This document shows, in pieces, positions 5,079-45,680 of a DNA stretch of 46,132 nt; position 1 is the stretch's first letter; each line of letters begins with the position of its first letter. The stretch is from Galbibacter kalidii (GTDB lineage Bacteria > Bacteroidota > Bacteroidia > Flavobacteriales > Flavobacteriaceae), in contig NZ_JAPFGA010000003.1 of NCBI RefSeq assembly GCF_026241135.1, forward strand, positions 284,956-331,087, written 5' to 3'. The notes under the pieces were generated by a model, which searched no databases, had not been told where the DNA came from, and saw only the letters and a program-made list of their open reading frames with translations. The position numbers and the translations under genes were made by a program.

Positions 5079-5558
5079 CTATTCATTAAACTTATATTTT
5101 TCAAAAAATATTTCTCTCCTTCTTATGCTGTCATAAACCTTTAAAGTTTCAAATTTAGATAGTTTATCAAGAGGAAAATATCCTTTAGGGCCAAAATAAA
5201 GTAATAAATCAATTTTCTTTATAGCTGTTATGCTGTCATATCCCTCAAAGTAATTCACCTTTATGACAAGTTGTCCCATCTCATTTAATGTATCAACAAT
5301 GACATATGGTATATTTTCACTATCATGAAATAAAGAACTACCATATAACCTGTGCAATAGACCGAATTCATTATCCTCTGGCATAAAGGAACTTTTGTGC
5401 ATAATCAAATTATCAAATTCAACACTATCATTACGTGAAAGATACTCTTTCATTTGATAAGTTACATAATCCACTCCACCTCCTTCTACTTTATTACAGC
5501 AAGTTAGAAAAGAAATGATGATTAGTGAGTATAATCCGTTTTGAATAAAATTTTCCAT
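5079..5558 (-). CDS. Lipoprotein, candidate immunity protein for Rhs A
   Basis: 159 residues with a hydrophobic signal ending in a lipobox (SFLTCC, Cys20 or 21), so it is probably anchored in the envelope. The rest (for example MPEDNEFGLLHRLYGSSLFH and YEGYDSITAIKKIDLLLYFG-like strands near 110-130) matches no family I recognise. Its ATG is 4 bases after the stop of the rhs A gene and no other gene intervenes before the terminator. That is the standard position of an immunity gene behind a polymorphic toxin tip. Being a lipoprotein, it would protect against a toxin acting in the periplasm or at the membrane; this is inference. Confidence 0.65.
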   Translation of the reverse strand: MENFIQNGLYSLIIISFLTCCNKVEGGGVDYVTYQMKEYLSRNDSVEFDNLIMHKSSFMPEDNEFGLLHRLYGSSLFHDSENIPYVIVDTLNEMGQLVIKVNYFEGYDSITAIKKIDLLLYFGPKGYFPLDKLSKFETLKVYDSIRRREIFFEKYKFNE

Positions 5559-5562
5559 AAAA

Positions 5563-8500
5563 TTAATCTTTTATTATTGTATTACGGTCACTATAATCAT
5601 ACCATTTGTTATAAAATTGATATAAATTATAAGTTTCTTTACTTATTGACAAACCATTGTCATTTAATATTTTCATTCCTGCTTCTAAAACTTCAAACTG
5701 ATTTATAGATGGCATTTCAATTCCGTATTTATTAACATCCCCTATAGGTAAACTTCCATCATAAACAAAATTAATGACATCAAATTTAAATTTGACACTT
5801 TCATTTAAACTTGAATTATTAACTAATCCAATTGCTTTATCAAATCCTGTTAAATTACTTTTAAGTTGATCATAGGCCTTCCATATAGGAACCTTATTAT
5901 CATAAGTATCATACAAGTTAAACAAGAACAATAGTCCCTCTATTTTCCCTCCTGTTCTATTCCTGTTATGTATTTGATAACCATAACCTAGCTCATCTGA
6001 AACAACATTATCATAACCTCCCATGGTCCATTCCGGAATATTCGGTAAATCATTTGATGGTAATATAGTTGGTTCTGAAGTATTATTATTTAATCCTGAA
6101 CCATTCAACCCAACAGAAGCTGCCGAAAACAAAGGTTGATTATAATTATTTTTAAAAACTGAGGGGACATTATTATTCCTTAATGAAACATTATTATTTG
6201 CTCCAAACATTAACTCTATTTTAAACCATCCTGTATTATTTCTCAAAATTTCCGCACCTTCAAGTTCTCTTCCCATTCCAATTTTATTCTCTTGAAATGC
6301 ATAGGTAGAGTTATATGCATAATCCTGAGCTAATGGGTCTAGCTGCCAAAACCTACCAATCGTAGGATCACTATATCTGTATTTCCATTCATGGGTGTTC
6401 AGTTCTAAATCTTCCGTAAATTCCTGTCCTTGAAAAGTTTTAAGATTATTCTTAACCCCATATATCCCACCATTATATCCTTTATGTTCCAATCCAAAAG
6501 GGTAGTAATTTTGCTCCCTTCTAATTTCTGAAGTTCCAACTACACCATCTCCATTGTCATCAGCATATGTAACCCGATGATTACCCCAGATATCTATATA
6601 TTTATACACATACTGGTATCCTCCCCCTGATTTCGGTTCAAAATATCCTTCTGAATGAGTGCCTTGTTTCAACTCATTATTTTCATATACATAATTACCA
6701 AGATAATCCGTTATTTTTGTCACAGCTCCTCCTTTAATTACCTTTTTCTTTTGTTTTGTTCCATCAGCTCCATAAATATAATCAATTCTATCATTTCCAA
6801 ACTCAACCCGTGTGGGTAAATTTAAATGGTTGTAGGCTATGCCCGTTATTCCTTTATTCTCATCACTGGTCATATTGCCATTGGCATCATACACATAGTC
6901 ATTTGCAGTATCTGCCATTGTGTTTACAGCATCATCCTTAAAACCAAACTGGTCTATAGACACATTATCTACTACTTTAAGGAGTTTATTTCCAATGTTA
7001 TAACTATAGGTCAATTTATCCATAATCCCAAAATGACTCTCATTGCTGGCAACGGGATCCTCCACTTTATGTCCCCTACGTGTTAATGTATTGATGTTCC
7101 CGTTCTTATCATAGCTAATATCACTTACACTATAACGGTCCCACCAACCTCCGCCTGCAAATTGTCCATCCGTAATCCGGTTCAAGGCATCGTAATGATA
7201 TATGTACCAAAACTTAGATGAGTTGTCAGATTGGGTTTTCCAGTTCACCTGTGAGATATTCCCATTGAACAACGCATCGGCACTATTGTGGGTCGGTGTG
7301 TTATAATGTAATTGAAAAGCAAATAGGTCATTCCCTATATTGTCTACATTGTTGACCCCTTTCAACCAACCTCTTATATTATAGGTGTAATTCACTATTT
7401 GCAATTCATTATTGTCTTTTCCTCCTACTTTTTTATAGTCTAATTGACCAAGTTCATCATAATGATTCTGTGCAATAAGCTCCCCATTGTGTTTAATTTT
7501 AGCAGAAAAACTTTTACCACTCCCGGCTATAAAATGAAATGTGTTTCCCAATGTAATGCTTTTCCCTGCAACTACATTCATTGTGGAGCTTTTAGCACCT
7601 GTTATCGTTTTTTCATCATCAATACTTGAATTTGGGCAATTATTAGACAGCGAGCTATCACCTACACATTGATAGTGTTTTTTTTGCCTATTCTGATGGT
7701 CATACTCATAAGCATCTACTGTAACAATGGTTTTACTTCCTTTTGTGTGTATTGTTCTTGTTTTTAATATATTTCCAGAAAAATCATATTTGGTCTTTAC
7801 AATATTTATTGTATTTAAATATTCATTTTTACTTGCTACATAAACTGCTCTTCCCTTAGTATCATATGCCGTTATTGTGGTAATCCATTTAGCAGAACTC
7901 ACCCCCAGAACCCTTACCTTAGTTCCGGTTGCCAAACCTTTAACATTTGCAGCAATAACCTGACCAAAAATACTTCCTGTAGGAACGCTCAATCCTGCAC
8001 GGTCAAAAGTATAATCATCATAATAGTTTATGGTATGAACTTCATCAAAACTCCTAGGGTATGCATCTTTAGAATAATAAACCGTGGTATTAGCATATGT
8101 TTGTGCAGTATTTGATTTTGTAACCACCTGTTTGGTAGTTGCATCAGCTGCTGATTGTAAGACAGAACGGGAAGTACTATTTCCCGAATCAATACCGGTA
8201 TATGCTACTCTGCCAAAAGCATCGTAAAGGGTAAACAACCATTTGTTTTCTTCTTTTAGTTTCGGGTCACGTGTTAAGATAGGTTGATCATTTCCATTAT
8301 ACACAATTTCTTCCCAGTTGTTACTGTCCCCTTTCCCAGGTATCTTCTTTGCTATTATCCGGTTCTTTTCATCATACCTATACTGATAGCATAATTCATT
8401 CAGTTCAGTTTGAGAAATACCATCAGCTGTGTTCACTTTAGGCGGTATCATATACGTGAGATTTCCATAAACATCATATACATAATAGGTATCATGTTTC

Positions 8501-9870
8501 ACTTCACTTTCCAATATTCCATCATTATTGATATCAGTACTTGTGTATGTTCGTTTTAGGACTGTTTGCCCTAATAAATTTGCGAATTCCTCAACCGTAT
8601 TGTTCTTTCCTGAAGTCCAGTTTTCATTTTTTACTACCTTTTTATATAATTCACCGGGACTATAATATGAACCTTGTACCAGACTAGGCAATTGAGTGTT
8701 ATTATTGACAAAATCCACCTCAAAGAGCCTTACTTCCTGTAAATCATTTACCTTATACTCATATTTTTCCGTGTGATCTGTATTACTACTTTTATTGACA
8801 ACCCAAGCAGCTCCAGGAGCCCCTTTTTCTTTTACTCGATTAAGTGGAGAGGATTCAAAGTAGGTCTCTGTATATGGGTTAAGTGTATTTTCATACTTTT
8901 GAGAGTTATAAAAGCCCTCAACACCGCTAATAGGATCATTAAATATTTTACCACCATTAGTACTGGTAGCATAAGGCAAATATTCTAGAGATTGTCTTCC
9001 CAAATTATCATAAACAATAGGGGTAATGATATCTTCATGATTACCACCAGCTCTAATGGATATATTTTGTTTTGGCCTTCCAAGCCCATCAAAATATGAT
9101 ACATTTTCAATCATTTCATCATCACCAAGTTCAGAAATGTCTTGTGTCCGAACACGAGGTTTTCTAGTATAAACAAGATTATCATTGGCAAGACCATGTT
9201 TTACTGTATTATTATATGCATATTGAGTTATTTGTGAACCAATCGTGACACTTTGCCCCCCTATAGTGGTAGTACCCAAAATTGTTGTCCCTCTTGTTGC
9301 ACTTGTTGTATTAGGATCACATGTAACTGAAATAGAGGTGCCTGTTTGCGAAATATTTATCCATGATGGTACAGGCTGATTATCATATGTTCTAAAATTA
9401 AAATATGCAGAACTTGCACTACAATCAGAAAATGTTAATGGGAAATTCTTTGTCTCACCAAGACGGTCAAAATTCCCTCCACTAAAACCAGTTATACTGC
9501 ACGAAGCTGGTGGGGAAGTTGGCTCAGTCCCTTGCTTTACTTTAAAACCGTTGACATAGCTTCCATTTGCCTTCACAGGGATACTGATTTCTCGGTACCC
9601 ACTGGAAAAACTTTGACAAGTAACTTGTATTGTATAGTTAGATATATTTACCGTTAGCCATGTGGGAACGTTCCCGACACTAATAGTTGGGCTATAACAA
9701 CCAGAAGGGAGACTTATGGTCGTTGTTTGGTATCCGCCACTTAATGAGAAGTTCAATTCACTTTTGCTTAGTGATAAACCATAACAACTCTGAGCTTGTA
9801 TTGTTGTTAACCCAGAAAAGCCTATAAAAACAAGTGTTATATATATTGATTTTAGCAAATAATTTTTCAT
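5563..9870 (-). CDS. Rhs/YD-repeat polymorphic toxin A with BACON and DUF6443 domains
   Basis: 1435 residues. Signal peptide MKNYLLKSIYITLVFIGF to about residue 27; BACON-like beta-sandwich (30-115, VPTWLTVNISNYTIQV); second BACON-like module (124-216, VPSWINISQTGTSISV); DUF6443 from about 228 (YFDGLGRPKQNISIRAGG); then YD repeats such as YDALNRITDG, YDANGNMTSD and YNHLNLPTRVEFG; Rhs core end YYPFGLEHKGYNGG...DPTIGRFWQLDPLAQDYAYN. The core normally forms a shell that holds the tip. From about residue 1208 comes a non-conserved, Asn-rich 228-residue tip that I cannot assign. It follows the SpvB-like gene by 5 bases and precedes a lipoprotein by 4. Compared with rhs B it lacks the calcium-binding repeat array, and its core DNA is visibly more AT-rich. 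Confidence 0.9.
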   Translation of the reverse strand: MKNYLLKSIYITLVFIGFSGLTTIQAQSCYGLSLSKSELNFSLSGGYQTTTISLPSGCYSPTISVGNVPTWLTVNISNYTIQVTCQSFSSGYREISIPVKANGSYVNGFKVKQGTEPTSPPASCSITGFSGGNFDRLGETKNFPLTFSDCSASSAYFNFRTYDNQPVPSWINISQTGTSISVTCDPNTTSATRGTTILGTTTIGGQSVTIGSQITQYAYNNTVKHGLANDNLVYTRKPRVRTQDISELGDDEMIENVSYFDGLGRPKQNISIRAGGNHEDIITPIVYDNLGRQSLEYLPYATSTNGGKIFNDPISGVEGFYNSQKYENTLNPYTETYFESSPLNRVKEKGAPGAAWVVNKSSNTDHTEKYEYKVNDLQEVRLFEVDFVNNNTQLPSLVQGSYYSPGELYKKVVKNENWTSGKNNTVEEFANLLGQTVLKRTYTSTDINNDGILESEVKHDTYYVYDVYGNLTYMIPPKVNTADGISQTELNELCYQYRYDEKNRIIAKKIPGKGDSNNWEEIVYNGNDQPILTRDPKLKEENKWLFTLYDAFGRVAYTGIDSGNSTSRSVLQSAADATTKQVVTKSNTAQTYANTTVYYSKDAYPRSFDEVHTINYYDDYTFDRAGLSVPTGSIFGQVIAANVKGLATGTKVRVLGVSSAKWITTITAYDTKGRAVYVASKNEYLNTINIVKTKYDFSGNILKTRTIHTKGSKTIVTVDAYEYDHQNRQKKHYQCVGDSSLSNNCPNSSIDDEKTITGAKSSTMNVVAGKSITLGNTFHFIAGSGKSFSAKIKHNGELIAQNHYDELGQLDYKKVGGKDNNELQIVNYTYNIRGWLKGVNNVDNIGNDLFAFQLHYNTPTHNSADALFNGNISQVNWKTQSDNSSKFWYIYHYDALNRITDGQFAGGGWWDRYSVSDISYDKNGNINTLTRRGHKVEDPVASNESHFGIMDKLTYSYNIGNKLLKVVDNVSIDQFGFKDDAVNTMADTANDYVYDANGNMTSDENKGITGIAYNHLNLPTRVEFGNDRIDYIYGADGTKQKKKVIKGGAVTKITDYLGNYVYENNELKQGTHSEGYFEPKSGGGYQYVYKYIDIWGNHRVTYADDNGDGVVGTSEIRREQNYYPFGLEHKGYNGGIYGVKNNLKTFQGQEFTEDLELNTHEWKYRYSDPTIGRFWQLDPLAQDYAYNSTYAFQENKIGMGRELEGAEILRNNTGWFKIELMFGANNNVSLRNNNVPSVFKNNYNQPLFSAASVGLNGSGLNNNTSEPTILPSNDLPNIPEWTMGGYDNVVSDELGYGYQIHNRNRTGGKIEGLLFLFNLYDTYDNKVPIWKAYDQLKSNLTGFDKAIGLVNNSSLNESVKFKFDVINFVYDGSLPIGDVNKYGIEMPSINQFEVLEAGMKILNDNGLSISKETYNLYQFYNKWYDYSDRNTIIKD

Positions 9871-9875
9871 TGGTC

Positions 9876-12737
9876 TTAGTTTTTGTAGTGGTAATAATTA
9901 TCAGATAGTATATTAAGGTTCTTATCTTTAATCTGCTTCACACGATTAAAGTCATCATATTCAAAATAAGTCGTATTACCTTTTGGATCTGTTGTACTGG
10001 TCATCCCAATTAAAGGTCTGTAAGTATAGGTAGTGACCAAAGTGTTTTTCATGGAAGAATGCGTTCTCAATTTATTCAATTCGTCTCTCATTGCCGTATC
10101 ACTTGTCAAAGTACTGTTAATAACATTCATGTTTAATCCAATCGTACCATGATAAATCTGAGAATAGTCTGCATTTTCAATTTTTGCTACAGGATATTTA
10201 TCTCCATAACCCCATATTACAGTTACAGGGACACCATCTCCTTTATGGTATTGGATAATGTTTCCATCCATATTGTACTTATCAATAGTTAAATTGAAAT
10301 ATTGTTTATCGCCTTTTGTGTATTCAACCGTTTTAAGTAGGGGAGCATTTCCTGTATTCATATAATTTGCCGTATTATATTCAAAGATGTTTTCTTCAAT
10401 GAAGATGTCAGAATTACTATAATGTGTTTCCTTAATTACAGGATTTGCAATCATATTTTTATTTACTAACACATTATTAATCGTGGAGCTAATATCAAAA
10501 GGATACTTAAGTACTTTTCTCTTTAATTCAGAATTTTCTGTACTTAGGGTTTCCTCAGTCACTAAAGTTGGATGATTGTTAGAGTATTTGTAATTTATTT
10601 TTTTTGTAACAAAATCACTTCCATTATAAGTTTTCTCGATAGATTCTATTAGTTGGTAATTTTTATTGCTCTCTGTGTATTTTCCAATATTAAATGTTAA
10701 ATAAACAGCATAATAACCAGGTTGAGCATATACCATATTTATAAGTGTGTAAAACCTCAATCCCTTAGTTGACAAACTATTATTGCTACTTTCTTCATAA
10801 TTGTTAGTAAGTTTATAAACTTCTATACCATTTGCATCCTTAATACTTTTTTCTAGTAATTTACTCCGCTGATAAGAATTATTAATTGATGGAGGAGCAT
10901 ATGGGCTTTCATAAGGATTTATATTTTTCAATCTCTCAACACTATTATTATTTGTGGTTTCCTTAACTAATACTTGAAAATAATCTGAATTAATTCTTTG
11001 ATCTGGATTTGTAGTCAATGTTGTATACTTATTTATTTCTTTACTACCATCAGCTCGTATTTTTTTAACTTCTCCATATCCAATATGAGAACCATTAAGA
11101 TCAAATAATTCATTAAAAGAAGACGATCTTATAAAATATCCATCACAATATTCAATTACAGTTTGCCCTCCATTGTTTAAAGGGTAAGTCAATGTTTTTT
11201 CGGAATTATAATCGGGTGTAGTGTATTGAATACCGCTACTGTTTCCAGAGGAACCCATTGTGTAATTATAGTGAGTAATGGTATTACCGTTATTAGCATC
11301 ATTATTTTCAACAGAGCTTATTCTTAATCCCCCACTTACTTTATTGCCATTATTATAAAAACTATTTAATCCATAATTGAATTTCGTATAGCCTCCAGTT
11401 GGATAGATTATTTTTTTAAGAATACCGGCTTTAGCGCCAATTATGTCAGAAGTTCTATATTGATTTATCAATAACGGATTGCCCCTTGGTATAAGTTCTG
11501 TTTGGTTGTTTACATTGTAATATCCCCAATGGTCAATCTCCGATGATCCTCTTTTTGGTAGTCGAGTGCTATTATATTTAAATTGATATTTTTTTGTGAA
11601 ATTATGATCAGGGTAAAGCTCATCAATAAAGTCCAGTTTTAATCGTTTACAATCAGGTTCTGAGCAATTTTCTTTGGAAGGAAAATAGCTATACCCAAAG
11701 CGGATGGTTTTAATTGGATTATCATTATAATCGTAAAGCTTCAATTCTGAAATTCTTTTTGCAGCTATAAGATCCTGACGGCTTAAAGTTGATATCATTA
11801 TATACCCATAATCGGAACTTATTTTTTTTAAATAGCTACTAGTTATGGAAGCTTCAACTTTCGTTTTTGCAAAATATTCATGACTTTGGCCTGTCACTGT
11901 ACAATCTAAATCACTATACTCTTCAATCGTTGTATTAAATGAAACTTGATTTCCATGGTTATATTCATAATCGAATTTTTCACCCTTTGCGGTCGTTATA
12001 TTTGATAAATACCAACTTGATATGAAGGGATCTTTTATATCAGGATCTCCTCCATTATATATAGTGGTCACTTCCGATTCTTCCCTAGAATTGCTGGTCA
12101 CTCCAAATTTATATGTTGTCCCATTAGTGTCAATAACAACCCAATGGCTCCCCGTTCCATTCGGACCAAAACCTTCCGGAGGGATAATCTTAAAGTCCTG
12201 TTCTGGCATCATAACCACATTGCCATAGGCATCAAATGTAAAACGACCTGATTTTCCTAAAACATTAAAATAATATATATCAGGTTCTGAGTCATAAGAC
12301 CCTGTTCCAAATCCTGCTACATAAGTACTGCTTAGAGCACTAAATGGCTGATCTGTTATTATTTTACCAATTTCATTTGTTCCTATATAACCATACTCAT
12401 GATCATCAGGCTTTCCACGAACCACTCTTGTAATAACTCCTCCAGTATTTAATGTCCACCCAAGTCCTACATTACTCGCAATTTCATCAACCTTAATTCC
12501 TGCCGAATGGTAACTAAGGGTTATCGGTATATTTAAATCATTTCCTCTTAAACTCAAAACAGGTAATTTAATATCAGCTACCCCTGTATACATATCAACG
12601 GGGATTTTAGCATATTCTGCTAATGCACTTGCTTCAGGAGAAGGCGGAAAAATGTTTTCTACCCGCTCATTAAATTGGGCATTCACCACTATAGTACTTA
12701 CTAATAATCCTAATAAAATAATTTTTTTCAACATCAT
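9876..12737 (-). CDS. SpvB-like/YD-repeat secreted partner of Rhs A
   Basis: 953 residues with a signal peptide (MMLKKIILLGLLVSTIVVNA). The N-terminal part carries the SpvB/TcaC-like pattern IPVDMYTGVADIKLPVLSL, ITLSYHSAGIKVDEIASNVG and LGWTLNTGGVITR (about residues 45-105). The C-terminus returns to YD-repeat sequence (TYTYRPLIGMTSTTDPKGNT, YFEYDDFNRVKQIKD). In Bacteroidota this type is regularly encoded just before a DUF6443 Rhs protein, and the two together look like one split Rhs shell; a physical complex is inferred. Its ATG directly follows the TAA of the last fibre gene, and the paralogue at 38553-41384 has the same position and ending (SENKYHYKD versus SDNYYHYKN). Confidence 0.85.
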   Translation of the reverse strand: MMLKKIILLGLLVSTIVVNAQFNERVENIFPPSPEASALAEYAKIPVDMYTGVADIKLPVLSLRGNDLNIPITLSYHSAGIKVDEIASNVGLGWTLNTGGVITRVVRGKPDDHEYGYIGTNEIGKIITDQPFSALSSTYVAGFGTGSYDSEPDIYYFNVLGKSGRFTFDAYGNVVMMPEQDFKIIPPEGFGPNGTGSHWVVIDTNGTTYKFGVTSNSREESEVTTIYNGGDPDIKDPFISSWYLSNITTAKGEKFDYEYNHGNQVSFNTTIEEYSDLDCTVTGQSHEYFAKTKVEASITSSYLKKISSDYGYIMISTLSRQDLIAAKRISELKLYDYNDNPIKTIRFGYSYFPSKENCSEPDCKRLKLDFIDELYPDHNFTKKYQFKYNSTRLPKRGSSEIDHWGYYNVNNQTELIPRGNPLLINQYRTSDIIGAKAGILKKIIYPTGGYTKFNYGLNSFYNNGNKVSGGLRISSVENNDANNGNTITHYNYTMGSSGNSSGIQYTTPDYNSEKTLTYPLNNGGQTVIEYCDGYFIRSSSFNELFDLNGSHIGYGEVKKIRADGSKEINKYTTLTTNPDQRINSDYFQVLVKETTNNNSVERLKNINPYESPYAPPSINNSYQRSKLLEKSIKDANGIEVYKLTNNYEESSNNSLSTKGLRFYTLINMVYAQPGYYAVYLTFNIGKYTESNKNYQLIESIEKTYNGSDFVTKKINYKYSNNHPTLVTEETLSTENSELKRKVLKYPFDISSTINNVLVNKNMIANPVIKETHYSNSDIFIEENIFEYNTANYMNTGNAPLLKTVEYTKGDKQYFNLTIDKYNMDGNIIQYHKGDGVPVTVIWGYGDKYPVAKIENADYSQIYHGTIGLNMNVINSTLTSDTAMRDELNKLRTHSSMKNTLVTTYTYRPLIGMTSTTDPKGNTTYFEYDDFNRVKQIKDKNLNILSDNYYHYKN

Positions 12738-13676
12738 TTAATTTCTTATAATTAACTTTTCTAGATTATCTAATCTCAATTCCAACTCTTTATTCTTTTC
12801 TTTAAGCTTTTTAATTTCATTTTTCTGCTCTAGTCTTTTTGCATCAAGATTTTTGTTTATGCTTTGTTGCTGCATTATCTGTCTTTCCTGCTCAATAATA
12901 TAAAGCGTCAACTCCTCAATCTTCTGCAGCAGCTTAGCATCCATCTCTCCAAGGTAAACCCCGTTTTCTTCTACTTCTTTGGCAGAGGGGATATCTTTTA
13001 GGTGACCTTTTTCTTTAATATGCTGTTCTACTTCTTCGAGGGTTGGGAGATCATAATCTTTTTCGAAGACGAAGTCGCTCCAACCAACGACATCTACTTT
13101 TACTTCTTTAGCATGAACTTTACCGTTTACAGCCAATTTTGAATCAGGGTTCCATGTTCCTATCCCCACATTACCGGATATAAATGAAAAATTACCCGAC
13201 TTGGGAACATCTTCATAGGTTTCAGGGTTAGCTATAAGTGTCGTTGAAGAAGGAACATCTACAATCATTAACTGTTCTTTTGTCACAGACATTTCGATAG
13301 AAAGATGACCAAAACCACCACCTGAAGATTTAGCATACAATTCAAATACAGAAGGGGATATTTTTTTAAACTTAACCGCGTCATCCATTTGGGTTCCCAT
13401 TAAAGTATAATTCCAACGCCCATTTAAACTGGTTGGACCTTCCCTCATAATCAATTGCACTTTGGCCGTATATCCTCTTTCCTGAGTCCTTACAAAGTTT
13501 ATTTCGGCATTTACGTTTACTGAATTGTAGGTGCTATTATCTGTAAAGTCGAAAACAGCCAACTTATACCACTGGTTGGTGGATTCCTGACCTAAACGAA
13601 ATTTTCCTTCATAATGATCCTGTGCTGTTACATTTAACAAAAACAGAAATACAAAAGTTGAAATTATCCTTTTCAT
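12738..13676 (-). CDS. Fibre-like secreted protein A4
   Basis: 312 residues: signal peptide (MKRIISTFVFLFLLNVTA), a variable beta-rich head to about residue 170, then the shared tail of this family. The tail begins with NVGIGTWNPDSKLAVNGKV, continues with WSDFVFEKDYDLPTLEEVEQ, GHLKDIPSAKEVEENGVYLG and EMDAKLLQKIEELTLYIIEQ, and ends in a Lys/Glu-rich coiled coil (about 240-310). Such proteins are usually annotated tail-fibre-domain or hypothetical. The head resembles that of the next gene (13673-14587), with similar WYKLAVFDFTD and VQLIMREGP-type strands. The start overlaps the preceding gene's stop by 4 bases. Last of four tandem fibres before the SpvB-like gene. Confidence 0.8.
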   Translation of the reverse strand: MKRIISTFVFLFLLNVTAQDHYEGKFRLGQESTNQWYKLAVFDFTDNSTYNSVNVNAEINFVRTQERGYTAKVQLIMREGPTSLNGRWNYTLMGTQMDDAVKFKKISPSVFELYAKSSGGGFGHLSIEMSVTKEQLMIVDVPSSTTLIANPETYEDVPKSGNFSFISGNVGIGTWNPDSKLAVNGKVHAKEVKVDVVGWSDFVFEKDYDLPTLEEVEQHIKEKGHLKDIPSAKEVEENGVYLGEMDAKLLQKIEELTLYIIEQERQIMQQQSINKNLDAKRLEQKNEIKKLKEKNKELELRLDNLEKLIIRN

Positions 13677-14589: not shown

Positions 14590-15351
14590 CTATTTTGTTT
14601 TTAGTTTTTCAATTTCTTCTCTTTGGGCTTTATTCTCCTTCTTTAATAATTCTATTTCTTTTTGCTGCTCAATGGTATAAAGTGTGAGTTCTTCAATTTT
14701 CTGAAGGAGTTTTGCATCCATCTCTCCAAGGTAAACCCCGTTTTCTTCTACTTCTTTGGCAGAAGGGATATTTTGTAAATGACCTTTTTCCAGAATATGC
14801 TGTTCGACTTCTTCAAGAGTTGGGAGTGTATAGTTATCTTCAAAAACGAAGTCGCTCCAGCTGGTCTCTACTTTGATTTCTTTAGCTCGGATTTTTCCGT
14901 TGACCGCCAGCTTCCAACTTCCAGGAGCCCTAGTTCCTATTCCAACATTCCCACCATCGAACCAAGTTGGATGGAAATTACTTGTTGAAAGCCTTATTCG
15001 CTTATCATAATTATCTATCCCTATGGCCTGATACATTTCCAAAGATGAGATTAGCTCTCCTGTGTTAGAGCCACCGGGTTTTAATTCTATCCTATTGTGT
15101 GCATACCTTCCTTTTGGAGTTCCCATTATTAAAGAATGCCTATTCCAATAAAAATGCGTTTTTCCCCAACCACTTTCATAGGCATCATTACTGTATAAAT
15201 AAAAATCCCCATTCACTTGAAGTTTTGCTATTGGATTCGTAGTACCAATCCCTACATTATCACTTGTAGTCAAAGAACTTCCGTTATCTGCCCACTGTGC
15301 GTGTGACTTCATCATAATGATTACCAATATGAAAAATAATATTCTTCTCAT
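14590..15351 (-). CDS. Fibre-like secreted protein A2
   Basis: 253 residues, the shortest fibre of operon A. Signal peptide MRRILFFILVIIMMKSHA; two NVGIGT motifs (about residues 32 and 136), the repeated beta-turn marking fibre shaft segments; conserved tail with WSDFVFEDNYTLPTLEEVEQ, GHLQNIPSAKEVEENGVYLG and EMDAKLLQKIEELTLYTIEQ; C-terminal coiled coil QQKEIELLKKENKAQREEIE. The tail after VNGKI is nearly identical to that of 15348-16529 and 41407-42234, while the head is unrelated. Overlaps the A1 gene by 4 bases. Confidence 0.8.
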   Translation of the reverse strand: MRRILFFILVIIMMKSHAQWADNGSSLTTSDNVGIGTTNPIAKLQVNGDFYLYSNDAYESGWGKTHFYWNRHSLIMGTPKGRYAHNRIELKPGGSNTGELISSLEMYQAIGIDNYDKRIRLSTSNFHPTWFDGGNVGIGTRAPGSWKLAVNGKIRAKEIKVETSWSDFVFEDNYTLPTLEEVEQHILEKGHLQNIPSAKEVEENGVYLGEMDAKLLQKIEELTLYTIEQQKEIELLKKENKAQREEIEKLKTK

Positions 15352-17307: not shown

Positions 17308-17312
17308 TATTA

Positions 17313-17795: not shown

Positions 17796-17798
17796 CTG

Positions 17799-19211: not shown

Positions 19212-19213
19212 AC

Positions 19214-30689: not shown

Positions 30690-30690
30690 A

Positions 30691-38541: not shown

Positions 38542-38552
38542 AGGTATTGGCA

Positions 38553-41384
38553 TTAGTTTTGGTCTTTATAGTGGTACTTGTTTTCGGAAAGCAGCTCTCC
38601 CGCATCGTTTTTTACAAACTCCAAGCGGTTGAAATCGTCGTATTCATAATAGGTCGTGTAACCTTTGGAATCAGTGATCGTGCTCACCCCTACCAAGGGG
38701 TCGTAGGTGTAGGTCGTTACTTGGGCATTGGGCATCGCATCCCGGATATCCTCCAGTGCACTGGTCAGACTACTCTCACTTCCGGTGTTCGAGGCGTTCT
38801 TGGCAGCTGTGATCAGGGAAGATGGAATACTCCCATAAGAGGTTACGTTCGCGATCTTAGCTATGGGATATTGACCATTATACCCCCACAGGTACACTAC
38901 CGAAGAGCCGTTCGCCTGTTGCATTTCCTCTGGGTTCCCGTAACTGTCATAGCGTTTGTACTCGATCCGTGGCTCTATAGGACCACTCCCCTTCGAGGTT
39001 AACACCTTCTCTGGCAAAATCCTATTACTGCCCCAATCCTTATAGATGGTTTTTGATAATTCTAAAAGAACTTCATTCGATTCCCCGTTCTCGATATTAT
39101 AATTTTTCTTTTCAATTACCGGAGACAAAATATTTCTCGAAACCATTGCTGTATAAGGAGCTGTTGAATAATCTTCAGGATAGAAGTAATCCTCTCTCAA
39201 ATGCTCCCCGAGACTAGTTTGGATTTGTTTCTTTTTCAAAAATAAATGGTTATTATACTCGTACTGTCCCCTAGTTATCAAATTACCGCTATCATAATAG
39301 GACACTACTTTAGTGCTATCTAATCTTTGATGAAGTTGGTTAAATTCAATATTATAAAAAGTAAAGAAATATGCTTTCAATTTCACGTTGGCGTTATTCT
39401 TCACAACTTTAGAAACATCTAGCCCACGAGCAACCATGTTGGCATTATGAGAATAGTAATTGTTTACGATTTTTAGTGTATCTAAATCAGTATTCAAGTA
39501 AACCGTTTTATTCTCGAATGTACTTCCAAAGGTTTTATCATAATAGAATTTAGGTAAAAATTGAATCTCACTATGTTGCCATGGATATCCTTTACTTATA
39601 CTCCACTGATCCGATCTTCTCCTATCTATAAAAGAGGTATCAAAATAGTGTTCTATTATACCATTACTGCTTGTTTCATCTCCAATAAACTCTGTTACCT
39701 TTCCATATATAATAGGAGAACCATTAATGCCCACATCACAATTCGAGGAGGAAGAAGCTGTCATTGTATTGGAAACAGGGTCTGTTGTCCTGTCATATGC
39801 ATTCATAAAATGACTTTGATAGTATACATCTGAGTTTAGCCTATAATACGGATCTGAATATTGATAAGTTCTTTTTAGATCATTATTTCCTGTCCTGTTA
39901 ATAATAGATTTTACTCGAATTCCTGCAGTATAATCATCATTACCTTCATATTCATAAATGCGTTCTCCCCCAGATGGAAATACAATTTTATTTAACACCC
40001 CTAGCTTCGCATAATTATAATTAGGAGACCTGTCGGCGTCTCCAAAAATATTAGCTACATAAGGCGCCCAAAAAAAATCTGGAAGTAAATCTTCATTCCA
40101 TTCTCCATTATAATATCCCCAAAAATCTATTTCAAAACTATTTTGGGCATTACTATTAAAAGGTTCATTTTCAATATATGGAAATCGTCCATTTTCATAT
40201 TCAAAACTATATTTGGAGATTTCCTTGTTCTTGGAGTCTAAAAAACTAAGTTCATCTAATTTATACCAGTTCTTACGATTAGCCTCAACATTTGCAAATT
40301 TTGAAAGGTCAAATTTGATTGTCCGAATAGGATTGGCATTGCTTTTTTGATATATTTTTATGTCCTTTAATAAACATTCCGGATAGTCATATAAATAATT
40401 GAATTGAATATGACCTGATTTAAACTCTATACTTCTAATTCTCTTTTTGGTATAATAATAAACATTATGATTTACCGTGCTACTTATAGTATGAGCTCCA
40501 CCTACTGATGTTATGGACTTACTGAATTGAACATTATGCTTTTTAAAATATTTTAATCCATCGGCACGGACAATGACATCTTCATATTTAAAATGAATAG
40601 TGTCCCTTTTGTTTTTGGATATTATTTCCATTAGTAACCAGGAGGTCCTTCCTAAAGGAAATGTTGAGGTAGAAATATTTGAATAATCTTCATATGCTGT
40701 ATCAATTCCGTTAAAAGACTTTCCAAACCTGTACAACGTCCCCGATTCATCCAGAATATCAAAATACTGAAACTTATTATCGCTAAAAGTGGGAATAATT
40801 TTGACAGGTTGATAAGGCAGTAATTTTGGCTTTAAAAACTCACTTAACTGCTGGTTTCTTCCAAAAACAAACTTACCCGACTTTCCGTTCGGCAGGACAA
40901 AAGAAAACAAATCAAGAGATGAATCCTTATGCCCCAATGCTATTTGATCGAGAACTAAGGCATCATCATCCTGTTCTAAATTATTGTTATTACTCGAAAT
41001 TTCAGCTTCCAAAGGAATATTAAAGTTCCAAAATTTCTCATCGGCTTCATCATTTATTGATCTCGCAATAAGACCAAAAGCGTTTAACGACCATCCCAGA
41101 CCAACAAATCCGCTAACATCCTCATTGGGCTTAAGGCCAGAATAACTATATGATAAAGAAATAGGGAAGCTTATGTCTTTATACTCAATATTATAAATAG
41201 GAATATTCATGCTGGGAATACCTAAAGACAATTGATTAGGAAAATCAATAAACTCAATAAATTTTTGAGACTCTGGTGAGGGAGGAATAATTTTAGGTAA
41301 TTCGTAAGACTGTCCTAAAACGACATTAAAAGTCATTAATACACAGATATATAGATATTTAGCTTTTTTCATGTTCATATTCAT
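38553..41384 (-). CDS. SpvB-like/YD-repeat secreted partner of Rhs B
   Basis: 943 residues (939 if the Met at 41372 is used, which starts the signal peptide MKKAKYLYICVLMTFNVVLG). N-terminal SpvB-like pattern: LPKIIPPSPESQKFIEFIDF, FPISLSYSYSGLKPNEDVSG and FVGLGWSLNAFGLIARSIND. Middle part diverged from the operon A paralogue. C-terminal YD-repeat ending TYTYDPLVGVSTITDSKGYT, YYEYDDFNRLEFVKND. Same place and same closing sequence as 9876-12737, so each Rhs toxin has a dedicated partner. Stop and rhs B start region are contiguous (TAATG), suggesting coupled synthesis of the two. Confidence 0.85.
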   Translation of the reverse strand: MNMNMKKAKYLYICVLMTFNVVLGQSYELPKIIPPSPESQKFIEFIDFPNQLSLGIPSMNIPIYNIEYKDISFPISLSYSYSGLKPNEDVSGFVGLGWSLNAFGLIARSINDEADEKFWNFNIPLEAEISSNNNNLEQDDDALVLDQIALGHKDSSLDLFSFVLPNGKSGKFVFGRNQQLSEFLKPKLLPYQPVKIIPTFSDNKFQYFDILDESGTLYRFGKSFNGIDTAYEDYSNISTSTFPLGRTSWLLMEIISKNKRDTIHFKYEDVIVRADGLKYFKKHNVQFSKSITSVGGAHTISSTVNHNVYYYTKKRIRSIEFKSGHIQFNYLYDYPECLLKDIKIYQKSNANPIRTIKFDLSKFANVEANRKNWYKLDELSFLDSKNKEISKYSFEYENGRFPYIENEPFNSNAQNSFEIDFWGYYNGEWNEDLLPDFFWAPYVANIFGDADRSPNYNYAKLGVLNKIVFPSGGERIYEYEGNDDYTAGIRVKSIINRTGNNDLKRTYQYSDPYYRLNSDVYYQSHFMNAYDRTTDPVSNTMTASSSSNCDVGINGSPIIYGKVTEFIGDETSSNGIIEHYFDTSFIDRRRSDQWSISKGYPWQHSEIQFLPKFYYDKTFGSTFENKTVYLNTDLDTLKIVNNYYSHNANMVARGLDVSKVVKNNANVKLKAYFFTFYNIEFNQLHQRLDSTKVVSYYDSGNLITRGQYEYNNHLFLKKKQIQTSLGEHLREDYFYPEDYSTAPYTAMVSRNILSPVIEKKNYNIENGESNEVLLELSKTIYKDWGSNRILPEKVLTSKGSGPIEPRIEYKRYDSYGNPEEMQQANGSSVVYLWGYNGQYPIAKIANVTSYGSIPSSLITAAKNASNTGSESSLTSALEDIRDAMPNAQVTTYTYDPLVGVSTITDSKGYTTYYEYDDFNRLEFVKNDAGELLSENKYHYKDQN

Positions 41385-41406: not shown

Positions 41407-42234
41407 TTAGTCGTGGTTAACTTCTAGTTTTTTGATAACTTTCTGTTGTTTAACTACAATCTCCTTCAATTGTTTTAAAGTTTCTTCGTACTTATTAATT
41501 CTTTTCTGCTGCTCAATAGTATAAAGCATCAACTCCTCGATCTTCTGTAAAAGCTTTGCATTCATATCACCTAGATAAATCCCGTTTTCTTCCACTTCTA
41601 TAGCCGAGGGAATATCCTTAAGATGTCCGTTTTCTTTAATATGCTGTTCTACTTCTTCGAGGGTTGGGAGGTTGTAATCTTTTTCAAAAACAAAATCGCT
41701 CCAGCTGGTCTCTACTTTGATTTCTTTAGCTCGGATTTTTCCGTTGACAGCTAATTTCCAGTTCCCAGGATTGATTGTTCCGATTCCTAAGCTGCCCTTA
41801 AAATAAGACCGCTCCCCATTCCCCCTTAACATGGTAGAATCACCCAATTTAAAATACCCATATTCTCTCCCGTCATCAAACTTAGCCAAGTGCAATCTTA
41901 CCGACTGTGAATTGCCCTCTTCGGTTATCATCAATCCACTATGTCTGTTAATTTGGTTGATATGTAACAACGATTCCGGGGCAATTGTATTAACCCCTAC
42001 TTTTCCTCCGGAAAGTATAGAAACCCTTTCTTTAGAGCCGGTGGCGTCCTCGAACACACCCCATCGATCTCCATTAATCATTCCACTAGCCCAAATACCA
42101 TTGCTGGATGTACTTTGGAACAGACTTACGTTGTTGGGTGAATTCAGGATTATTTTACGATAATTCTGAGTTAAATCCTGAGCAGAAGCTTCTACAAAAA
42201 ATATAATGACAAAGATTATAACTAGTTTTTTCAC
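41407..42234 (-). CDS. Fibre-like secreted protein B4
   Basis: 275 residues. Signal peptide MKKLVIIFVIIFFVEASA; a short head containing KVGVNTIAPESLLHINQINR and GSLGIGTINPGNWKLAVNGK shaft turns; tail WSDFVFEKDYNLPTLEEVEQ, GHLKDIPSAIEVEENGIYLG, with DMNAKLLQKIEELMLYTIEQ and a coiled coil to the end (KQLKEIVVKQQKVIKKLEVN). The VNGKIRAKEIKVETSWSDFV part is the same as in operon A fibre A2. Four-base overlap with B3; the SpvB-like gene follows. Confidence 0.8.
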   Translation of the reverse strand: MKKLVIIFVIIFFVEASAQDLTQNYRKIILNSPNNVSLFQSTSSNGIWASGMINGDRWGVFEDATGSKERVSILSGGKVGVNTIAPESLLHINQINRHSGLMITEEGNSQSVRLHLAKFDDGREYGYFKLGDSTMLRGNGERSYFKGSLGIGTINPGNWKLAVNGKIRAKEIKVETSWSDFVFEKDYNLPTLEEVEQHIKENGHLKDIPSAIEVEENGIYLGDMNAKLLQKIEELMLYTIEQQKRINKYEETLKQLKEIVVKQQKVIKKLEVNHD

Positions 42235-43349
42235 TCTTCAAATTTTTTAAATAGTTGGTTGATAAGTTTCTGTTGTTCTTTTACAATTATTTTAAGTTTT
42301 TCCACTTCACTTTCCTCTTCTTTAAGTCTTTTCTCTTGCTCAATAGTATAAAGTGTGAGTTCTTCAATTTTTTGTAGCAATTTTATATTCATTTCACTTA
42401 GGTGAATCCCGCTCGTTTCCATGTCTTTGGCAGACGGGATTTCAGGGAGGTGTCCATTTTCCTGTATAAATTGCTGAACTTCTTCTAATGTGGGTAAGTT
42501 GTAGTTATCTTCAAAAACAAAATCGGCCCCGGCATTGACGGTTACTTTTACTTCTCTGGATTCAATTTTTCCGGCAACAATAATGTTTCCTGCACTACTA
42601 ACTCCCCATAACCATTGAGAATTATTATTTGTAGCTTTAACAGGAGTACTTAGTTGATTCTCTGCAGGTCCTTTAATTTGTTGATAGATATAACCGTTTT
42701 TTATAGGTGAGTCGGTCGGAAGTCCAGACATGGCACCATGATTTCCGGAAATAACTTCCATAAACATTCTAGGGTAATGCCCCTGACTATAGAAACCGGG
42801 GCCATTCCCATTGTAATTGGAATATCCTCCAAATATAGATCTGTATGAAATATATTTACCGATATTTCCACTGATACCATCGGTATATGTTGATCCAGAG
42901 AAGCTTCGGTAGATATTTGAAGTGACAAAATCACTATCTGATAAAGTTCCAAAGCTTATTATGCTTGCAGATTGGGACTCACTGGAACCGTTTACATGCA
43001 ATTTTGTTCTAGGAGTGCTAGTGCCAATACCTATATCCCCATTTTGATTAAGGACCAAAGCATTAGAATTATTTTGATAGTTGTATAAACTAAATTTACC
43101 CAATGTTGGATAATTTGACAGAAAACCCCAGGTTGTTTCACCTGCATCCTGAAACCTTATGATAGACGGATCTCCATCCGTAGTTGTATTAATATGGATC
43201 CTTGAATTCGTGTTGGCATCCGATTTAACTTCGAGTGTGGAAGAAGGAGTTATAGTACCGATCCCCACATTGCCTGAATCAGGAAAAGTATTGGTTTGGG
43301 ACCAACTAAGTATCGGTATCAAAAGATATAAAAAGTAAAGTTTTCTCAT
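42231..43349 (-). CDS. Fibre-like secreted protein B3
   Basis: 372 residues. Signal peptide MRKLYFLYLLIPILSWS; NVGIGTITPSSTLEVKSD and DIGIGTSTPRTKLHVNGS shaft turns; a long Tyr/Gly/Ser-rich variable head (about 125-255); a distinct tail version VTVNAGADFVFEDNYNLPTL, FIQENGHLPEIPSAKDMETS, GIHLSEMNIKLLQKIEELTL; coiled coil to FKKFEE. Overlaps both neighbours by 4 bases (ATGA). The tail differs more from the others than B2 or B4, so operon B fibres are not simple recent copies. Confidence 0.8.
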   Translation of the reverse strand: MRKLYFLYLLIPILSWSQTNTFPDSGNVGIGTITPSSTLEVKSDANTNSRIHINTTTDGDPSIIRFQDAGETTWGFLSNYPTLGKFSLYNYQNNSNALVLNQNGDIGIGTSTPRTKLHVNGSSESQSASIISFGTLSDSDFVTSNIYRSFSGSTYTDGISGNIGKYISYRSIFGGYSNYNGNGPGFYSQGHYPRMFMEVISGNHGAMSGLPTDSPIKNGYIYQQIKGPAENQLSTPVKATNNNSQWLWGVSSAGNIIVAGKIESREVKVTVNAGADFVFEDNYNLPTLEEVQQFIQENGHLPEIPSAKDMETSGIHLSEMNIKLLQKIEELTLYTIEQEKRLKEEESEVEKLKIIVKEQQKLINQLFKKFEE

Positions 43350-44635
43350 TCCTTATCCTTTATTGTTTCTATTTCTTTCTTTAGCCCTGCAACTATTTCT
43401 GTGAAATTTTCTTCTTGCTGCTTCAGGAGTTCTTGTTGCTGTTTCACGAGCTCTTGCTGTTCTTTTATCATTTTCTGTTGCTCAATAGTATAAAGCGTGA
43501 GTTCTTCTATTTTCTGCAATAGTTTAGCATCCATCTCTCCAAGGTAAATACCATTCTTTTCTACTTCTTTGGCAGAAGGGATATCTTTTAAATGACCTTT
43601 TTCCAGAATATGCTGTTCGACTTCTTCAAGGGTTGGGAGGTTATAATCTTTTTCAAAGACGAAATCACTCCAGCCAGAGGCTTGGATCTTTACCTCACGG
43701 GCCCCGATAGAACCTTCTACGGCTAGTTTGTGAGGGCCTGTATTTCCTGTTCCTATTCCGACACTTTTATTGTTGTATATACTCATAGCACTGCTGCCAT
43801 CTATCTGAAATCCAATTCTGCTACTGGAGTCTCCACCAGCAAAATTCATATAGGCATTACCATCCCCGCTAACAAAGAAACTGCTGTAATTGGTTGTTGT
43901 ATTGGAAGAAGAAGTAATCACTCCCTTGACCTCTAATTTACTCCTCGGGTTCATCGTGCCTACTCCTAATCTACCATCTGCATGCATCACCATAAGCCGT
44001 GTTGAATAATTTGCCCAACTGAACAATGGTCGTTCTGTAAGCATACCATTATACCTTCTTGCATTAAAACTAACCACTGGTGTTGAGCCTGTATCATTTT
44101 CCGGATTTACCTCTCCCATAAAGGTTATGGCGGTTCTATTGTCTGTAACATGCTTCCCTTTGATCAACGGAATAAATTGCCCCGGCTCTCCAGTGGTATT
44201 GGCAATTAACAGATGGTCTGATAGCGCATCTTGCGTCCGAAACCTTAAAAAACTTTCACTGGCGGTACTGTTTACAACATCTATATATGTTTGAGGATCT
44301 GTGACTCCAATTCCTATCCTTTTTGATGCCAGTATGTTTCCTGCAACTTGAAAATCTCCTTGTGTATTCAGTGCAGCTATAGGTGTAACTCCATCTACAC
44401 CCCATGTCCATCCCCTATTCGACACATCATTCATATTCATCTTTATGCTATAATCCGTAACAGGGCCGTAATGGTACTCAGCCGTATTCCCTATATGGAT
44501 TTTATAGGAATCATTACCACCCCAAAATCGGAATCCATACCCATCCCCGGCAGTTGCGTCATAATAAGTTTCTTGTGCTAACAGACTGCCACATGTCAAA
44601 CTGCTTATTATTAAAAATAGCTTTAGCTTTTTCAT
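43346..44635 (-). CDS. Fibre-like secreted protein B2
   Basis: 429 residues, the longest fibre here. Signal peptide MKKLKLFLIISSLTCGSLLA; several shaft turns (RIGIGVTDPQTYIDVVNS, RLGVGTMNPRSKLEVKGV, SVGIGTGNTGPHKLAVEGSI); variable segments between them; tail GWSDFVFEKDYNLPTLEEVE, GHLKDIPSAKEVEKNGIYLG; long Gln/Glu coiled coil (QQKMIKEQQELVKQQQELLK). The GPHKLAVEGSIGAREVKIQA tail start matches operon A fibre A3 closely. Confidence 0.8.
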   Translation of the reverse strand: MKKLKLFLIISSLTCGSLLAQETYYDATAGDGYGFRFWGGNDSYKIHIGNTAEYHYGPVTDYSIKMNMNDVSNRGWTWGVDGVTPIAALNTQGDFQVAGNILASKRIGIGVTDPQTYIDVVNSTASESFLRFRTQDALSDHLLIANTTGEPGQFIPLIKGKHVTDNRTAITFMGEVNPENDTGSTPVVSFNARRYNGMLTERPLFSWANYSTRLMVMHADGRLGVGTMNPRSKLEVKGVITSSSNTTTNYSSFFVSGDGNAYMNFAGGDSSSRIGFQIDGSSAMSIYNNKSVGIGTGNTGPHKLAVEGSIGAREVKIQASGWSDFVFEKDYNLPTLEEVEQHILEKGHLKDIPSAKEVEKNGIYLGEMDAKLLQKIEELTLYTIEQQKMIKEQQELVKQQQELLKQQEENFTEIVAGLKKEIETIKDKE

Positions 44636-44636
44636 C

Positions 44637-45680
44637 TTAATCTTCTTTATTGTTCTGTATTGACAACTTTTGTTCTATCTGCTCCAGTTTTTTGTACAAT
44701 TGTTTGTTTTGGGTTTGCAGGTTTGACATTTCTTCTTTAAGAATCTTATTCTCTTGCAGTATTTCTTGTTGTTGAATTGCACTGGAGGTCAGTGATTCTA
44801 TTTTCTCCTGAAGTTGAATCTGGTATAATGTCAGCTCTTCAATTTTCTTTAAGAGCTTCATGTTCATCACCCCCAAATCTACTCCATCCCGTTCCATTTC
44901 CTTTCCGGGATCGATCTCCGGCAAATGCTTGTTTTTTTTGATATATTCTTTTACTTCCTTTAAGGTCCTTAGGTGATATTCCTCTTCAAACACATAATCC
45001 GGTGCATTCACCACTTCCACTTTAACTTCTTCACTACGTATCTTTCCGTCTACCACCAATTTAGAACCAGGATTTGACACCCCAATGCCGACATTACCAT
45101 TAGCTCCATTGAAGATTATAAACTGGTTTTCGTCCTTGTCATAAAACTCTATGGCATCAGAACCTCCGCCACGCATCAATATCCGGGTCTGCAATTTTTC
45201 ATAAAGTGAACTATAGGTCTGGAATTCCATAGTATAGTATCCTCCCACATGATTTGATGTAATTTTCTTTGGAGCATTGGTGTTGCCTTTATTCAAATCT
45301 ATGGTCAGGGTAGGACCTACAATACTGTTACTTACAGCAATGTTCCCGTTTACATCCAATTTTTGGGTTGGGGTGGAAGTACCAATACCCAATCGATCGG
45401 TAAAATAGGAATACTTCGTATCTCCATCTATGGAGAAAATTCCTGATCCATTACTGTAATCTTCCACCCGTAATTGATTAGAGGACGTTCTGTAAAACAT
45501 CCCCAGCAAAGGAGTACCGCTGTCATCATCAAAGACGAACCCATGAGGACCTGAATCCCCGCCTGTCCCTAAAAATATTGTTGCCTGGTTCTTATCGAGG
45601 ATCTGGTCTTGGGTAACAGTTTGACCATAAGAGAAACAACAGGCCAATAGTAGTACGATAGAAAGTAGATTTTTAGTCAT
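44637..45680 (-). CDS. Fibre-like secreted protein B1, first gene of operon B
   Basis: 347 residues. Signal peptide MTKNLLSIVLLLACCFSYG; shaft turns RLGIGTSTPTQKLDVNGN and NVGIGVSNPGSKLVVDGK; diverged tail NAPDYVFEEEYHLRTLKEVK, KHLPEIDPGKEMERDGVDLG, VMNMKLLKKIEELTLYQIQL; the longest coiled coil of the set (about 265-345). Opens the minus-strand operon of seven genes ending with the E3-type immunity gene. Single-base spacing to B2. Confidence 0.8.
   Translation of the reverse strand: MTKNLLSIVLLLACCFSYGQTVTQDQILDKNQATIFLGTGGDSGPHGFVFDDDSGTPLLGMFYRTSSNQLRVEDYSNGSGIFSIDGDTKYSYFTDRLGIGTSTPTQKLDVNGNIAVSNSIVGPTLTIDLNKGNTNAPKKITSNHVGGYYTMEFQTYSSLYEKLQTRILMRGGGSDAIEFYDKDENQFIIFNGANGNVGIGVSNPGSKLVVDGKIRSEEVKVEVVNAPDYVFEEEYHLRTLKEVKEYIKKNKHLPEIDPGKEMERDGVDLGVMNMKLLKKIEELTLYQIQLQEKIESLTSSAIQQQEILQENKILKEEMSNLQTQNKQLYKKLEQIEQKLSIQNNKED

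Follow-up and report, generated by a model that had tools for sequence, protein, structure and literature searches.

A type IV filament machine interleaved with fibre, SpvB-like and Rhs genes in Galbibacter kalidii and its relatives: a probable export island

A putative type II secretion system (T2SS) has been described in Bacteroidetes, encoded by chu_3191-3202 in C. hutchinsonii and by Fjoh_0611-0622 in F. johnsoniae, in which genes ordered G-O-E-D are followed by inner-membrane parts, with F and the minor pseudopilins beside them (PMC5553014; this source, like most of those cited below, is represented by parts of its text). It was described there together with cellulose use; C. hutchinsonii mutants adhered less to cellulose, the proteins of their medium were hardly changed, and no direct cargo was identified in that study. 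The term ‘Rhs’ does not occur in its text. Separately, polymorphic toxins with signal peptides have been assigned, on the basis of sequence features, to ‘T2SS/Sec’ or, where they carry an SpvB domain, to a TcdB/TcaC-like route (PMC3482391). Here we consider a stretch of 46,132 nucleotides from Galbibacter kalidii (contig NZ_JAPFGA010000003.1, positions 284,956 to 331,087; hereafter, the window), in which a machine with the same component set and gene order as the putative T2SS lies among genes for fibres, SpvB-like proteins and Rhs proteins. Unlike the system as published, its genes are interleaved with these others and occupy two operons in the genome. An earlier note on this DNA had proposed a new delivery system; the machine itself is a known one, and what survives of that claim is its tie to the SpvB-Rhs and fibre genes. 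A search of the open-access literature, preprints excluded, found no link of this machine to Rhs toxins. We consider it probable that the locus is one functional island, in which a type IV filament machine exports fibres and SpvB-Rhs toxins, the two machine operons being interleaved with the genes for this cargo.

Other described systems share single features with the island. The Kil pilus of Myxococcus, which is Tad-like, is also a type IV filament machine with its parts spread over two clusters, and is coupled to antibacterial killing, with variable recognition tips (PMC8460266, PMC12075869). However, Kil has Tad-type parts, its variable tips are minor pilins, and no Rhs cargo is described in the available portions of those papers. 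Tc toxins likewise consist of an SpvB-type half and an Rhs half, on separate or fused chains and with a TcB-like fold; both the SpvB/TcB-like half and the Rhs/TcC half are found here (Pfam SpvB, fold comparison), in a comparison that covers the TcB and TcC halves only, whereas signal peptides and a neighbouring secretin machine set the present proteins apart. The mosaic adhesive trimers of Bdellovibrio (PMC10769870) are matched by the fibre profile in the Protein Data Bank (Bd2133, 8ond, E 6.8e-15; Bd1334, 8oml, 2.8e-6). In contrast to them, it is the C-terminus that is conserved here (two short helices and a coiled coil) and the N-terminal side that varies, and the window fibres have 253-429 amino acids (aa) compared with approximately 1000. 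Finally, the TANFOR polymorphic toxins of Bacteroidetes are similarly Sec-dependent, with an unproved outer-membrane route, although the available text links them to substrates of the type IX secretion system (T9SS) and not to a secretin (PMC7073777).

In the window, operon A (minus strand, 16529 to 5079) and operon B (minus strand, 45680 to 32733) each comprise seven genes in identical order, namely four fibre genes, an SpvB-like gene, an Rhs gene and a small gene. Between them, divergent from operon A, is a plus-strand gsp operon of six genes (16894-23185) in the order pseudopilin, prepilin peptidase, ATPase, secretin, PilN/GspL-like and GspM-like. All three were found where the earlier note had placed them; the immunity candidate of operon B is likely to start at approximately 33035 and not at 33215. 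The window ends where its contig (C37) ends, so that operon B may continue further. GspF is absent from the window and, by genome-wide search, lies only on another contig (C92), where GspC-like, GspK-like and pseudopilin genes lie beside it at approximately 164.9-168.5 kb. The C92 genes run on one strand in the order lipoprotein-like (239 aa), Ig/FN3-like lipoprotein (312 aa), two fibres, GspC-like (approximately 156 aa), GspK-like (423 aa), two pseudopilins, GspF, two further fibres, SpvB-like (1081 aa) and an Rhs gene that reaches the end of the contig. Contig C13 ends in a third such run, made up of ten fibres, SpvB and Rhs. In a second genome of the genus, assembled as one contig in this region (G004), a stretch of approximately 60 kb contains the two machine operons together with two fibre-SpvB-Rhs runs.

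The tie between machine and cargo was examined around the best 80 gsp loci of 554 relatives (the named loci), nearly all Flavobacteriaceae, a sample that favours close kin because only the best were kept; the linkage profiles were built partly from these same loci. The control was 40 random windows of 20 kb, drawn from ten genomes that have a secretin; one pair of windows shares 13 kb and another pair 11 bases. An SpvB or Rhs gene lies within 10 kb of gsp in 62/80 named loci versus 0/40 random windows, and an SpvB, Rhs or fibre gene in 72/80 versus 1/40 (60/80 and 71/80 with an earlier, smaller profile set); a chance neighbourhood is rejected on the 0/40, the P values computed for the association taking no account of shared descent. 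The nearest gene before gspG is SpvB in 21 loci and a fibre gene in another 21; 14 loci have a response-regulator-like gene there, six have Skp and 14 a gene of another class, and in the remaining four the contig ends. Fibre genes stand between gspE and gspD in 5/80. An OmpH/Skp-type chaperone (Pfam 8.7e-24) is present in 16/80 loci and 1/40 random windows, and a lipoprotein family in 17/80. The response-regulator-like gene (approximately 225 aa, named from its sequence; L153 and others) belongs to a family also present in 3/40 random windows. In a GspE tree, eight loci scored as unlinked (two cut by contig ends) are scattered among the linked ones; branches are long and the type IV pilus (T4P) outgroup is not one clade, and deep placement was not used.

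Co-occurrence across genomes points the same way within one family. Of 149 relatives, 25 have a secretin, 24 have GspF, 28 have DUF6443 and 31 match the SpvB profile. For the family f1, estimated at approximately 90 of these (G000-G089 appear to belong to it), the lists of SpvB and secretin genomes are identical, being the same 20 genomes of 18 genera, and DUF6443 is found in 17 of the 20. The window's genus includes three genomes with both secretin and SpvB and four with neither. A phylum-wide draw of 296 genomes, some common to the first set, was also made, its pairings counting secretins among the matches listed; there, 10/10 secretin genomes in f1 (30 genomes) have DUF6443. Outside f1, at least 16 genomes have both, at least ten of them within 14 kb (G149, G154, G161, G212, G224, G284, G288, G374, G398 and G404). 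Many families in the draw carry secretins, unclassified as to type. In G320 and G335, where DUF6443 is unlinked, the secretin loci have two further T2SSE-type genes and one GspF-type gene, as in a pilus cluster, and profiles found no SpvB, Rhs or fibre gene in 20 kb. It should be noted that at least six named loci lie on the same contigs as G025, G032, G054, G062, G080 and G287, so that the two sets are not independent. The earlier note had offered co-occurrence of gsp with SpvB and Rhs genes as a test, to be refuted by a gsp clade mostly lacking Rhs or fibre genes; no such predominance was seen among the loci examined, and the 62/80 loci, the identical f1 lists and the second machine half on C92 now support the link beyond the positional argument made there.

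The form of the machine mostly follows the form of the cargo. In the set of 149, GspD frames of 636-655 aa (G002, G041, G064, G077, G089, G142) pair with SpvB frames of 1906-2296 aa, and GspD frames of 714-764 aa with SpvB frames of 953-1837 aa, fragments aside; the window's genus contains both forms. The pairing is not clear-cut in G095 (GspD 680 aa; SpvB 2072 aa on another contig), in G084 (633 aa; SpvB of several sizes, the assembly being broken) or at the named locus L147 (GspD 738, SpvB frame 1920). Three genomes with a short GspD (G101, G113, G138) have no SpvB or DUF6443 match at the thresholds used.

The linkage also recurs outside the class and on plasmids. Four plasmid records, two from Persicobacter and two from Flavobacterium, all typed non-mobilizable, carry a secretin covering at least 80% of the query. 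By profiles, plasmid 6 of Persicobacter sp. JZB09 encodes Rhs, four fibres, a GspK-like protein and G-O-E-D-L-M, followed by a GspC-like protein, pseudopilins, GspF, a fibre, SpvB and Rhs, and plasmid 14 of the same strain encodes the machine together with a fibre and a 2421-aa Rhs protein. Of the Flavobacterium records, that of Flavobacterium jumunjinense (linear, 11 kb) combines machine genes with Rhs ends; that of Flavobacterium N1861 does so too, although some of its machine genes are fragmented, and also has two insertion sequence elements.

The machine belongs to the type IV filament superfamily. The core T2SS set is present (secretin, GspE ATPase, GspF platform, GspG pseudopilin and prepilin peptidase, the last below its Pfam cut-off), and the genome has one secretin, one two-domain GspF protein and one T2SSE ATPase over cut-off. 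GspC-like and GspK-like are names given on position and topology, and GspM-like on position and conservation; neither the GspC-like nor the GspM-like protein has a Pfam family. The GspK-like protein (L009:324-1595) has a pilin-like helix at its N-terminus and a stretch that weakly resembles bactofilin (0.0071, below cut-off), and is conserved beside the pseudopilins. ‘T2SS-like’, the label of the earlier note, fits the core set but is loose: the ATPase scores 515 bits against PilB and 493 against GspE, and the secretin 149.5 against PilQ and 148.4 against GspD (all below curated cut-offs), the best structures matching the secretin are PilQ (6e-30) and then GspD (1e-28), and in a published tree, seen in part, the Bacteroidetes ‘T2SS’ clusters with type IVa pili (PMC6668835). 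Membership of the type IVa pili fails because there is no PilT: in a genome listed as 99.97% complete, on 113 contigs, only the one T2SSE match exceeds the cut-off, with two weak matches below it. We therefore adopt neither T2SS nor T4P as an outright name; judged from its sequence, the machine should work like a T2SS or a pilus assembly machine. Delivery by a type VI secretion system in this genome was rejected, a search for the sheath protein VipB having given no match.

Both Rhs proteins of the window carry DUF6443. Rhs B has the features of a polymorphic toxin, namely an Rhs core (TIGR03696), a C-terminal colicin-E3-type ribonuclease domain (Pfam Cytotoxic 1.4e-16; colicin E3 structure 4.9e-9) and an adjoining immunity candidate (DUF7683, 7.3e-17), whose match to cloacin immunity protein (0.0016, below cut-off) agrees with the colicin-E3-type end. 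In Rhs A, the core match is under cut-off and the C-terminal end has no family assignment. Rhs B also contains, at residues 250-600 or thereabouts, tandem Cys-containing repeats (Pfam MopE-like, 4.9e-7), for which no counterpart was seen in Rhs A. Structure prediction gives the SpvB-like protein the form of an Rhs/TcB-type shell; a sequence search of the Protein Data Bank with the protein or its profile gave no match, in contrast to the fold comparison. In distant lineages, the SpvB-like and Rhs parts are joined in a single fused protein. The profile match of the fibres to the Bdellovibrio trimers covers a repeated G-N-V-G-I-G-T region; a single fibre alone reached only E 0.32. The fibre family thus appears, at the level of sequence, to resemble these trimers. 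A fibre model compared with 36 chains matched, by its coiled coil, helical proteins of unrelated name, S74 chaperone folds not being listed, and a phage search with one fibre gave no match; nor was any paper on DUF6443 found in the open-access literature. Signal peptides were judged by eye, without a predictor. As the earlier note had said, the Rhs, SpvB-like and fibre proteins of the window have no match to a T9SS C-terminal sorting domain.

Gene content, linkage, co-occurrence, fusion and folds were computed directly; for transport, assembly and killing, including export by this machine, we infer the following scheme. The machine parts would be the prepilin peptidase, major and minor pseudopilins, a GspK-like tip, the ATPase, the GspF platform, GspC/L/M-like periplasmic parts and one secretin, and the cargo would be the fibres, an SpvB/TcB-like shell half, an Rhs shell half with a variable toxin end, and the products of the immunity genes. 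Sec would carry the fibres, SpvB-like and Rhs proteins into the periplasm, where SpvB and Rhs would close as one Tc-like cocoon around the toxin end, assisted in some lineages by the neighbouring OmpH/Skp-type chaperone, and the fibres would trimerise. The pseudopilus might then drive both cocoons and fibres out by way of the one secretin and onto the cell surface. There, the variable adhesive fibres would pick the target, at which the toxin end would be freed, and the immunity protein would guard siblings. A bolder proposal, which we put forward tentatively and at rather less than even odds, is a widespread, sometimes plasmid-borne class of contact-dependent weapon, in which a type IV filament machine loads SpvB-Rhs cocoons and exchangeable adhesive trimers. 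The choice of target cell would fall to the fibres, and the pseudopilus would force the cocoons out via the secretin, so that the whole would amount to a Tc toxin with a pilus machine in place of the pore-forming A subunit.

A number of observations weigh against export of SpvB-Rhs toxins by this machine, or at least against its being generally required. The most telling comes from the same order and class outside f1, where 20 genomes of the phylum draw have DUF6443 and, among the matches listed, only G404 of these has a secretin; 5/5 f5 genomes and 14/15 labelled ‘same class’ have DUF6443 without a secretin match, as do three of 13 within f1 (G204, G231, G388). Over the whole phylum, the overlap of secretin and DUF6443 is at chance level (26/53 versus 139/296). 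In the set of 149, SpvB or DUF6443 without a secretin match is seen in six f5 genomes and in G091, G092, G108 (weakly) and G127, and some secretin-bearing genomes have extra SpvB-Rhs loci far from gsp. Conversely, eight named loci have no SpvB, Rhs or fibre gene within 10 kb; four of them are cut by contig ends (L113, L117, L125, L145) and four are not (L135, L137, L163, L172), the uncut ones including two from Aquimarina (L163, L172). The gsp loci of G101 and G089 have no cargo in 20 kb, and a Pontibacter plasmid with machine genes has no recognised cargo in the 31 kb read. A Tc-like cocoon would, moreover, be large for a secretin, and the phenotype of the C. hutchinsonii mutants, as far as the available text of PMC5553014 describes it, implies that the cargo may differ there. 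In L163, three pairs of 418-424-aa and 145-159-aa proteins (595-6614) lie upstream of gspG, where other genera have toxins; the one 418-424-aa protein scanned has no Pfam match, and the pairs are possibly a different cargo of the same machine.

The absence of secretins from many cargo-bearing genomes speaks for the view that the toxins leave by the T9SS or another route, the gsp machine serving otherwise and sharing a toxin-rich island through common transfer or chance. Nine secretin-less SpvB-Rhs/DUF6443 loci were chosen for an open reading frame (ORF) of 480-570 aa upstream; in the four whose ORF was scanned (G093, G106, G147, G091), it encodes a T9SS type A beta-propeller. Where the gene for such a propeller, sorted by the T9SS, immediately precedes the SpvB-Rhs operon of a genome lacking a secretin, as at L080, L081, L083 and L085, its product is a possible alternative export partner. 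Such propellers suggest that an outer-membrane route is needed and that the gsp machine is not the only one; different lineages may use one or other of two outer-membrane systems for the same cargo. Of the earlier note's proposition that an outer-membrane exit is needed and the neighbouring secretin supplies it, the link of machine to cargo is supported, but the genomes outside f1 and the toxin-less Aquimarina gsp loci do not fit it as a rule. The genome of the window itself has 15 T9SS type A domain matches (14 over cut-off), and plasmid copies would suit shared transfer, although their records are typed non-mobilizable. None of the 15 matches, however, is on C37, C92 or the C13 contig end, the window proteins lack the domain, and linkage holds for both machine halves and survives rearrangement, some fibre genes lying within the gsp operon itself. 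For these reasons we regard exit of the toxins by such a route as unlikely.

Closer to the favoured island is a surface filament, in which fibres and SpvB-Rhs shells ride on the tip or shaft, as do the Kil tips of Myxococcus, for contact delivery with no release. The near-equal scores of the machine as T4P and T2SS, the resemblance of the fibre profile to the Bdellovibrio trimer, the GspK-like protein, encoded with the pseudopilins and weakly bactofilin-like in one stretch, and the Kil precedent of a type IV filament pilus with variable tips and contact killing (PMC12075869, in the portion available) all speak for it, and the lack of a second T2SSE ATPase, and so of PilT, speaks against it while being compatible with it all the same. 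It overlaps with the favoured reading, and we take it as a serious possibility, if not the probable one. That the machine exports only the fibres, as adhesins, while SpvB-Rhs is released otherwise would agree with fibre genes being the cargo genes found inside the gsp operon, and with the reduced cellulose adhesion of the C. hutchinsonii mutants (PMC5553014, same limits). Nevertheless, SpvB is the gene nearest gspG in 21/80 named loci, and in 30 of the 62 loci that have an SpvB or Rhs gene nearby no fibre gene was recognised within 10 kb, and so we think it improbable. Machine and both kinds of cargo as one island remains the reading we prefer.

The features of the window are collected in Table 1. 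The interval from gsp to operon B contains a further fibre gene as well as three orphan Rhs ends (25274-32506, their small ORFs included); one of these small ORFs matches the immunity family WapI and one DUF6843. The final approximately 110 residues of the first orphan end resemble Scabin-like ADP-ribosyltransferases (3e-14), and a small ORF lies next to it.

Table 1. Predicted features of the window, in window coordinates.
Feature	Position	Strand	Basis
Lipoprotein-like ORF, 159 aa, immunity candidate after Rhs A (operon A)	5079..5558	-	Lipobox-like LTCC read from sequence; no Pfam match
Rhs A, 1435 aa (operon A)	5563..9870	-	DUF6443 and BACON; Rhs core match below cut-off
SpvB/TcB-like shell protein, 953 aa (operon A)	9876..12737	-	Pfam SpvB 1e-5; AlphaFold2 model (predicted template-modelling score, pTM, 0.75) matches Rhs and TcB shells
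Fibre protein, 312 aa (operon A)	12738..13676	-	Common C-terminal domain and coiled coil
Fibre protein, 304 aa (operon A)	13673..14587	-	Common C-terminal domain and coiled coil
Fibre protein, 253 aa (operon A)	14590..15351	-	Common C-terminal domain and coiled coil; structure modelled
Fibre protein, 393 aa (operon A)	15348..16529	-	Common C-terminal domain and coiled coil
gspG/pilA-like major pseudopilin	16894..17307	+	TIGR02532 over cut-off; GspG 3.1e-9, under its cut-off
Prepilin peptidase (A24)	17304..17795	+	Pfam 1.7e-4, under curated cut-off
gspE/pilB-like assembly ATPase with MshEN	17799..19211	+	T2SSE 2.7e-130; only T2SSE of the genome over cut-off
Secretin, gspD/pilQ-like	19208..21475	+	Secretin 6.4e-38; only PF00263 match of the genome
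gspL/pilN-like	21397..22683	+	PilN 2.2e-7; ORF overlaps gspD, true start probably later
gspM/pilO-like	22673..23185	+	Position and conservation; no Pfam match
Extra fibre gene downstream of gsp operon	23624..24568	-	Common C-terminal domain and coiled coil
Orphan Rhs end, ADP-ribosyltransferase-type tip (Scabin-like)	25697..28096	-	Profile matches
Orphan Rhs end	28789..30009	-	Hidden Markov model match
Orphan Rhs end	31325..32506	-	Hidden Markov model match
Immunity candidate (operon B), 100 aa from likely start	32733..33035	-	DUF7683/cloacin-immunity-like
Rhs B, 1836 aa (operon B)	33043..38553	-	DUF6443, MopE-like Cys repeats, Rhs core, colicin-E3-type Cytotoxic end
SpvB/TcB-like protein, 943 aa (operon B)	38553..41384	-	No Pfam match of its own; 28% identity to operon A protein in alignment
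Fibre protein, 275 aa (operon B)	41407..42234	-	Common C-terminal domain and coiled coil
Fibre protein, 372 aa (operon B)	42231..43349	-	Common C-terminal domain and coiled coil
Fibre protein, 429 aa (operon B)	43346..44635	-	Common C-terminal domain and coiled coil
Fibre protein, 347 aa (operon B), first gene before contig end	44637..45680	-	Common C-terminal domain and coiled coil

The tie of the machine to SpvB and Rhs makes both the cargo of the Bacteroidetes ‘T2SS’ and the route of these toxins testable by single-gene removals in laboratory Flavobacterium. That machine, large shell-forming toxins and adhesive fibres are mixed in many relatives too suggests one dedicated bacterial weapon, whose delivery route we have put forward here in outline. 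If this is true, a type IV filament machine would join the routes of Rhs toxin delivery.

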